Below are positions 2,282-2,534 of a stretch of DNA of 34,577 nucleotides, piece by piece (positions within the stretch are counted from its first letter, which is position 1; every line of letters begins with the position of its first letter). The position numbers and the translations under genes are program-made. The stretch comes from a virus, in IMG/VR virus record IMGVR_UViG_3300010370_000118, positions 1 through 34,577 of that record. One strand, 5' to 3'. A model generated the notes under the pieces. The model did no database searches. It was not told the origin of the DNA and was given only the letters and a program-made list of their open reading frames with translations.

Positions 2282-2309
2282 TCTAACGGTTCTTACGGTG
2301 TCTAACGGT
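2282..2309 (-). repeat. Left iteron array, three copies of TCTWACGGT
   Basis: Three copies stand head to tail at 2282-2290 (TCTAACGGT), 2291-2299 (TCTTACGGT) and 2301-2309 (TCTAACGGT). They are the reverse complement of the right-hand array boxes, allowing A or T at the fourth base. Confidence 0.85.
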
Positions 2310-2390
2310 AGGCGTAAGACCGAGATCCCGCGCCACGACTGGGATCTGCCTCCTTACTTACACTTCTTACACTAAAAAGGGTATAGATAA

Positions 2391-2434
2391 GAGAGAGAGA
2401 GAGAGAGAGAGAGAGAGAGAGAGAGAGAGAGAGA
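2391..2434. repeat. (GA)22 dinucleotide microsatellite
   Basis: Twenty-two uninterrupted GA units form a pure purine tract on the plus strand and pyrimidines on the minus strand. Long perfect dinucleotide tracts are unusual in phage genomes. A homopurine mirror repeat can form a triplex or melt, which would suit an origin. Length errors from sequencing are possible. Confidence 0.95.
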
Positions 2435-2451
2435 TCTATGGCTTGCTGGAA

Positions 2452-2478
2452 ACCGTAAGAACCGTAAGAACCGTAAGA
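2452..2478 (+). repeat. Right iteron array, three perfect copies of ACCGTAAGA
   Basis: Three identical 9-mers follow one another without gaps at 2452-2460, 2461-2469 and 2470-2478. They point opposite to the left array, so the two arrays form a large inverted arrangement around the GA tract. Confidence 0.9.
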
Positions 2479-2515
2479 AACCCAGTGATAGCAAGGGTTT
2501 TCAGCCTTACAGCAG

Positions 2516-2534
2516 CCGTTAGATCCCTAACGGT
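2516..2534. repeat. Inverted pair of the same box over the primase stop codon
   Basis: CCGTTAG at 2516-2522 and CTAACGG at 2527-2533 are perfect inverted copies of the iteron core separated by four bases. The pair spans the TAG stop of the primase-helicase gene (2527-2529). It could be a high-affinity dimer site or a small hairpin. Confidence 0.7.

Follow-up and report, generated by a model that had tools for sequence, protein, structure and literature searches.

The alpha protein of phage P4 combines primase, helicase and origin recognition in a single polypeptide, and the P4 origin and crr carry repeated boxes. In the SaPI/PICI replicons, the origin is located directly 3' of the initiator gene and two sets of iterons flank an AT-rich region, as set out in two reports (PMC6092414; PMC7581432). 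According to the same reports, iteron recognition lies with the initiator's C-terminal domain, the iterons differ between elements, and the replicon is a proven one (PMC6092414; PMC7581432, citing Ubeda 2007). The SCCmec proteins Cch and Cch2 are described, in one of these reports, as self-loading initiator-helicases that use the C-terminal domain to bind short direct repeats located just past the gene (PMC7581432). The orf56/orf904 module of pRN1 consists of a small repressor-type gene, a primase-helicase with a C-terminal winged helix, and an essential site at most 166 bp downstream (PMC4234260).

The locus described here is part of the window, by which we mean the whole 34,577-nucleotide stretch of viral DNA, from an IMG/VR record, that was analysed. 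An array of short boxes follows the gene for an 825-amino acid primase-helicase, and this region is very probably the start site of DNA copying in a picocyanobacterial virus. As in SaPI/PICI elements, the putative origin lies immediately 3' of the proposed initiator gene, with the array beginning over the stop codon, and two iteron sets flank an AT-rich region. The SaPI initiators belong to the Rep helicase families (DUF927 or D5/primase C-terminal type), whereas the protein here joins a zinc-ribbon/TOPRIM primase to a helicase-like region. In the lists of Pfam families for 45 members, at E values up to 1, there was no match of the DUF927 or D5/primase C-terminal type. SaPIs and PICIs are also satellites without virion genes, whereas the window carries ordinary major head, portal, terminase, tail, tape-measure and lysis genes. 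Further differences are the 11–12 boxes in fixed order, the two extra arms and the family-wide specificity residue seen here. We do not class the module as a SaPI/PICI replicon, although it appears to work like one, because it belongs to full phages and no DUF927-type match was found for its initiator.

The remaining systems resemble the locus in part. The C terminus of Cch weakly matches the C-terminal domain of the primase-helicase in structure (5dgk_B, Z 3.5), but Cch2 has only three iterons and no fused TOPRIM primase, and no sequence match to the primase here was found. The gene order of pRN1 parallels the small ribbon-helix-helix (RHH) gene, primase-helicase and downstream site of the window, whereas pRN1 has a 100-nucleotide stem-loop without iterons and a prim-pol rather than a TOPRIM primase (PMC4234260). 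The nearest GenBank relative of the origin region is Synechococcus phage S-H1 (MK105819), which has a primase of 64.5% identity, the same box plan, GTTAGG/GTTCGG boxes and a tryptophan at position 809 of the primase, but lacks the GA tract; its origin is unannotated in the record. Phage P4 shares the repeated boxes and, as proposed here, a primase, helicase and origin reader in one protein; P4 is a satellite, and the likeness considered is one of organisation.

The box array and its surroundings

On the minus strand of the window, the gene order is a 43-amino acid RHH-like protein, the primase-helicase, the box array, a 91-amino acid RHH-like protein, a small ORF and a sliding clamp. The plus strand encodes a helicase, an exonuclease, a RecT-like annealing protein, an SSB and a sigma factor. 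No tRNA genes were found in the window, and the scanned ORFs included no DNA polymerase, so that host polymerase III is probably what the phage depends on. The features are as follows.

791–1843, minus strand: sliding clamp, DNA polymerase III beta-like
1988–2263, minus strand: 91-amino acid RHH-like protein, downstream of the origin; NikA-like and BrnA matches weak and below cut-off
2264–2534, unstranded: putative iteron-type replication origin, bordered by the primase-helicase stop and by the gene for the 91-amino acid RHH protein
2282–2309, minus strand: three boxes in direct repeat, ACCGTTAGA / ACCGTAAGA / ACCGTTAGA; '+++' when read on the primase strand
2313–2319, plus strand: lone box CGTAAGA in the opposed orientation; '-' in the plan, position kept in relatives
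2322–2347, unstranded: distal arm GAGATCCCGCGCCACGACTGGGATCT, an imperfect inverted repeat with counterparts in relatives
2353–2438, unstranded: low-stability spacer and probable unwinding region, from the nearest-neighbour profile
2356–2371, minus strand: a direct pair of weaker boxes, TGTAAGT and TGTAAGA; the '++' set, position kept in relatives
2390–2434, unstranded: (GA)22 tract, CT on the primase strand; probably lineage-specific low-complexity filler, absent or replaced in relatives
2452–2478, plus strand: three perfect ACCGTAAGA boxes; '---' when read on the primase strand
2479–2502, unstranded: primase-proximal arm AACCCAGTGATAGCAAGGGTTTTC, an imperfect inverted repeat with counterparts in relatives
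2505–2511, minus strand: box TGTAAGG; the primase-proximal '+'
2515–2534, unstranded: opposed pair GCCGTTAGA (plus strand, 2515–2523) and ACCGTTAGG (minus strand, 2526–2534), over the primase stop codon
2527–5004, minus strand: primase-helicase, 825 amino acids, with zinc ribbon, TOPRIM primase, P-loop helicase-like region and C-terminal winged-helix-like domain; proposed initiator
2530–2907, minus strand: C-terminal domain of the primase-helicase (residues 700–825), the proposed box-reading domain; residue 809 is His
5001–5132, minus strand: 43-amino acid RHH-like protein, upstream of the primase, from translation

The original prediction had named eight boxes, and all of these are real: the three TCTWACGGT boxes on the minus strand (2282–2290, 2291–2299 and 2301–2309), the three perfect boxes on the plus strand (2452–2460, 2461–2469 and 2470–2478), and the inverted pair across the primase stop (2515–2523 and 2526–2534), each member of which has one mismatch. 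Eight is not the full count, as four weaker or single boxes had escaped that first reading (2505–2511, 2365–2371 and 2356–2362 on the minus strand, and 2313–2319 on the plus strand), as had the two imperfect inverted-repeat arms between the box groups. With a core of GT[AT]AG, the 12 boxes run from 2282 to 2534 and read, on the primase strand, + - + --- centre ++ - +++. Clustering of multiple short repeats at one site, here 12 boxes in 253 bp, is typical of iteron origins. The pattern ACCGTWAGA with at most one mismatch occurs 13 times in the window versus 3.7 ± 2.0 times in shuffled sequences, none of 100 shuffles reaching 13, and eight of the 13 matches fall within the 253 bp. All six exact copies lie inside the array, and the reversed pattern used as a control has no exact copy in the whole window.

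An easily melted region next to the repeats, another property of iteron origins, is also present. By nearest-neighbour calculation, the least stable 50-bp segment (from 2353) and the least stable 80-bp segment (from 2359) of the whole 34.6 kb both lie between the arrays. The uninterrupted GA tract that had been noted in this spacer is there as described (22.5 AG units at 2390–2434, 100% match). The minus strand of 2264–2540, taken as single-stranded DNA, folds significantly better than shuffled sequences (z –4.7), but opposed identical boxes force such pairing. No Rfam match indicative of a structured RNA was found at the origin. GC skew keeps its sign across the box array and speaks neither for nor against an origin, as the direction of its step differs between lineages: it goes from ~+0.15 (1–2526) to ~+0.03 (2527–5004) in the window and in the same direction in several relatives, while others show the reverse.

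A common plan with phage-specific boxes

A scan with the primase yielded 80 viral loci (labelled with L-numbers), and in almost all of those with enough downstream DNA the box plan is located directly after the primase stop. The original prediction had looked to related phages for conserved boxes with a drifting GA length. What is conserved is the plan (++---++-+++), whereas the box sequence differs by phage and the GA tract itself is not retained. Box endings across phages include AAGA, TAGG, GAGG, AACA and CAGA, and boxes are nearly uniform inside each phage, with TAGG in 11 of 11 boxes of L010, GAGG in 12 of 12 of L014 and AAGA in 12 of L029. L047 has AACA boxes, and L048 is about half AAGA and half CAGA. 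Mean box identity is 0.90 within a phage versus 0.74 between phages for the non-palindromic box types; near-palindromic types are ambiguous in orientation, which leaves the test of box position 6 described below unaffected. The core has an arm element on either side, which in many relatives conforms to TTGCxGCGCAA, and these arms are retained while the boxes change.

In relatives, 79–100 bp usually separate the '---' set from the '++' set (median 89, at loci with both anchors found), the few values above 150 bp being anchor mis-assignments. The sequence of this spacer varies freely, consisting of CT, CA, GT or AG stretches or of plain AT-rich DNA, and it ends AT-rich, as in TCTATACCTTTTT. The special role that had been suggested for the long GA tract finds no support in this comparison, and we discarded the tract as a conserved functional element. 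Because the spacer is variable and is the least stable DNA here, the (GA)22 tract is best seen as filler of a putative unwinding region, not as a triplex element. It is the form taken in this phage by a spacer of ~90 bp that is variable, low in complexity and low in stability.

Related primases with boxes at the same place also occur in Cyanobium, Synechococcus and Vulcanococcus genomes (L089–L106 and L114). At least one of these, L106, looks like a prophage because a terminase and a sigma-factor gene are nearby. Boxes are likewise in place at a few loci outside cyanobacteria (L107, L109 and L113). Among more distant phages, no array follows the primase in ZRG1, PY223, Dolphis, Touem01, MQ-4 and Acjo_20, and the arrangement is therefore not universal in the wider primase family. 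A DNA-level origin search of phage records and an exact triple-box scan of viral contigs gave no match, as expected if boxes drift. A clamp-based search for related loci gave no confirmed loci, and L114 as a viral query returned no relatives. Searches of the open-access literature gave no account of an iteron origin in any of these cyanophages.

The primase C terminus and residue 809

The AlphaFold2 model of primase residues 700–825 is of high confidence (pLDDT 93.7, pTM 0.87) and has a winged-helix-like order of elements plus a C-terminal strand pair. A Foldseek comparison of this domain with the PDB gave nothing significant (best VIA Z 5.0), and the winged-helix label comes from the predicted order of secondary structure and from weak matches to winged-helix-like DNA-binding domains. 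The primase-helicase has weak Foldseek matches to NrS-1 and to the poxvirus D5/E5 helicases, which do not decide whether it belongs with the SaPI Rep helicases. PDB searches with the primase sequence and profile gave no helpful match. A very similar predicted C-terminal domain occurs in UniProt G8EY43, which is assigned to Synechococcus phage S-CAM8 (TM 0.84, 35% identity).

Box type follows this C-terminal domain. Among primase pairs more than 95% identical in residues 1–590, the C terminus (591–825) is 98.4% identical if the boxes are the same and 85.4% if they differ. The phage L049 illustrates this: its DNA is ~90% identical to that of L048 and L054, drops to 64–66% over the last ~100 codons, is unalignable at the origin, and returns to 90–92% straight after. 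In a partial Mantel scan with the rest of the protein controlled for, residues 776–825 gave the strongest signal (r = 0.277, p = 0.005; 200 permutations, about 32 windows tested). The C terminus and the origin are neighbours, however, and part of the covariation is hitch-hiking, which counts against an initiator reading. Because some of the covariation is linkage, the ranking of single columns, the contrasts on a tree and a test on new sequences matter most.

Column 809 is the best of 825 predictors of box type, with a leave-one-out accuracy of 0.98 in 50 dereplicated sequences, and the next five (813, 815, 820, 769 and 781) are all C-terminal. In the AlphaFold2 model, residue 809 ends the strand 803–809, directly before F810. 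With the GT of the box numbered as positions 2–3, Arg809 occurs with C at position 6, and for positions 6–7 Trp809 occurs with GG, Tyr809 with GA, and His809 with GA or GG. On a tree of residues 1–700, box class and residue 809 change 11 times each. All six independent supported contrasts agree for Arg and C (p = 0.03); those for Trp and for Tyr or His go in the same direction and are too few for significance.

Once the rule had been seen, two distant queries were used to collect additional viral loci, and in these Arg809 is accompanied by a C box in 41 of 41 cases. After removal of sequences at least 90% identical in the C terminus to earlier ones or to each other, Arg809 predicts C in 19 of 19, and a plain C box occurs in none of 15 sequences without Arg (Fisher p = 1e-8, with one hybrid origin scored against the rule). 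The new sequences have only about 40–80% C-terminal identity to the set in which the rule was found. His809 also occurs with T at box position 6 in the new set, so the rule is sharp for Arg and C and looser for His. Nor is residue 809 the sole determinant, since L086 has His809 with mostly GTAAGG boxes and L226 has Ser809 with GTGAGA boxes. An exception is L225, which has Tyr809 with matching GTGAGA boxes in the primase-side half and non-matching GTTACA boxes in the far half. The stretch runs from the primase stop to about +340 and its halves join inside the low-complexity spacer; L225 is an apparent natural hybrid or recombinant origin, or a misassembly.

Alternative readings and a proposed mechanism

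With RHH-like genes on both sides of the array, the boxes could be operators bound by these proteins or a plasmid-type centromere (CopG/Omega/ParG type), regulating the primase/clamp operon or partition, with the origin elsewhere. Short boxes repeated in both orientations can be targets of RHH proteins. If so, box type should follow an RHH protein, and it does not. The 43-amino acid RHH protein is identical in L012 and L014 though all their boxes differ (TAGG and GAGG, respectively), L048, L054 and L049 share an almost identical downstream RHH protein even though the boxes of L049 are different (CAGA versus AACA types), and in the sampled TACA-box relatives no downstream RHH protein was seen and a different gene follows. 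The window has no exact box outside the one array, unlike a regulon, an arrangement that we also set aside. The RHH proteins, put forward earlier as candidate box readers, are thus unlikely to set box specificity, and we consider an operator or centromere quite improbable.

It is unlikely, too, that the origin is real but some other protein, of phage or host, reads its boxes, the primase C terminus co-varying only as neighbouring DNA in a shared recombination tract. The exchange blocks do span the C terminus and the origin, which would give some correlation, but linkage of this kind leaves unexplained how one column of 825 predicts position 6 in such divergent C termini and why all six independent contrasts agree, and the downstream side of the origin, equally close, shows no covariation. 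Some packaging sites carry repeated boxes, and the terminase genes are 1–3 kb from the array on a circular map (window 32089–34457; likewise in S-H1), which would suit a packaging or site-specific recombination site. Box type nevertheless tracks a replication protein, the array is locked to the primase stop in all array-bearing relatives, the low-stability spacer sits between the arrays, and carriers differ in terminase type (phrog_15 in the window, phrog_38 in L106), so that a function in packaging or recombination in place of replication is very improbable.

A replication origin is supported by the conserved boxes and their order, by the position of the easiest-melting DNA between the arrays and by the covariation of box type with the primase C terminus. 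Of the original prediction, the opposed iterons beside a primase-helicase stand, while a special role for the GA tract is not supported. We think it highly likely that the region is an iteron-type theta origin read by the C terminus of the adjacent initiator-helicase, with matched pairs of box and tail and residue 809 as a main reader.

Protein binding, melting, helicase loading and origin activity, which we infer, would proceed as follows. The 270 bp after the primase-helicase gene would be a theta-type replication origin, whose GTNNNN boxes would be bound by the C-terminal winged-helix-like domain. The opposed box sets may load two initiator-helicase assemblies, face to face across the low-stability spacer of ~90 bp; the spacer would then melt, and the two assemblies would give bidirectional unwinding. 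The same polypeptide would subsequently serve as helicase and primase, and the phage clamp from the adjacent gene would serve host DNA polymerase III. Each lineage would have its own box and initiator tail, the pair switching together, mostly by exchange of the C terminus and origin as a block. Residue 809 is proposed as a main reader of box position 6, with Arg for C, Trp for GG, Tyr for GA and His for a base other than C. That the cyanophages and prophages form a family of matched initiator-origin pairs, with at least 11 specificity switches and with residue 809 reading one iteron base, seems to us probable.

Such a system would extend a SaPI/PICI-like layout, with a different initiator, to full tailed phages, and also to prophages, of the abundant picocyanobacteria. 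It provides candidate origins for phages without an annotated one and offers a testable single-residue recognition rule. The divergent natural pairs of origin and initiator may also be used to study how replication specificity evolves and what stops co-infecting phages from sharing origins. If the proposal is true, they would represent a natural recognition code yielding many orthogonal replication origins.

Similar arrangements were observed elsewhere. In Pararheinheimera phage KLER1-1 (L334), CTTACA and TGCTAA repeats flank a TATATA-rich stretch after the primase stop, which probably makes this a non-cyanophage example of such an origin. The 19-kb circular Atlantibacter plasmid pLH84-a-B (NZ_CP100496.1, 5752–9114; L336/L337) has a distant version of the module, with integrase, ParA and HTH genes and a related CHC2 primase; GGTAATA/GGTAACA repeats surround an AT-rich stretch and are followed by a terminase small subunit, in a Gram-negative PICI-like order. 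Positions 1–480 of Synechococcus phage S-LBS1 (L008) carry CCTAACC/GGTTAGG boxes and GGTTGGGCA direct repeats beside an unrelated prim-pol gene. This stretch, part of which recurs near the end of the record, has the look of a further iteron origin, served by an initiator of another kind.
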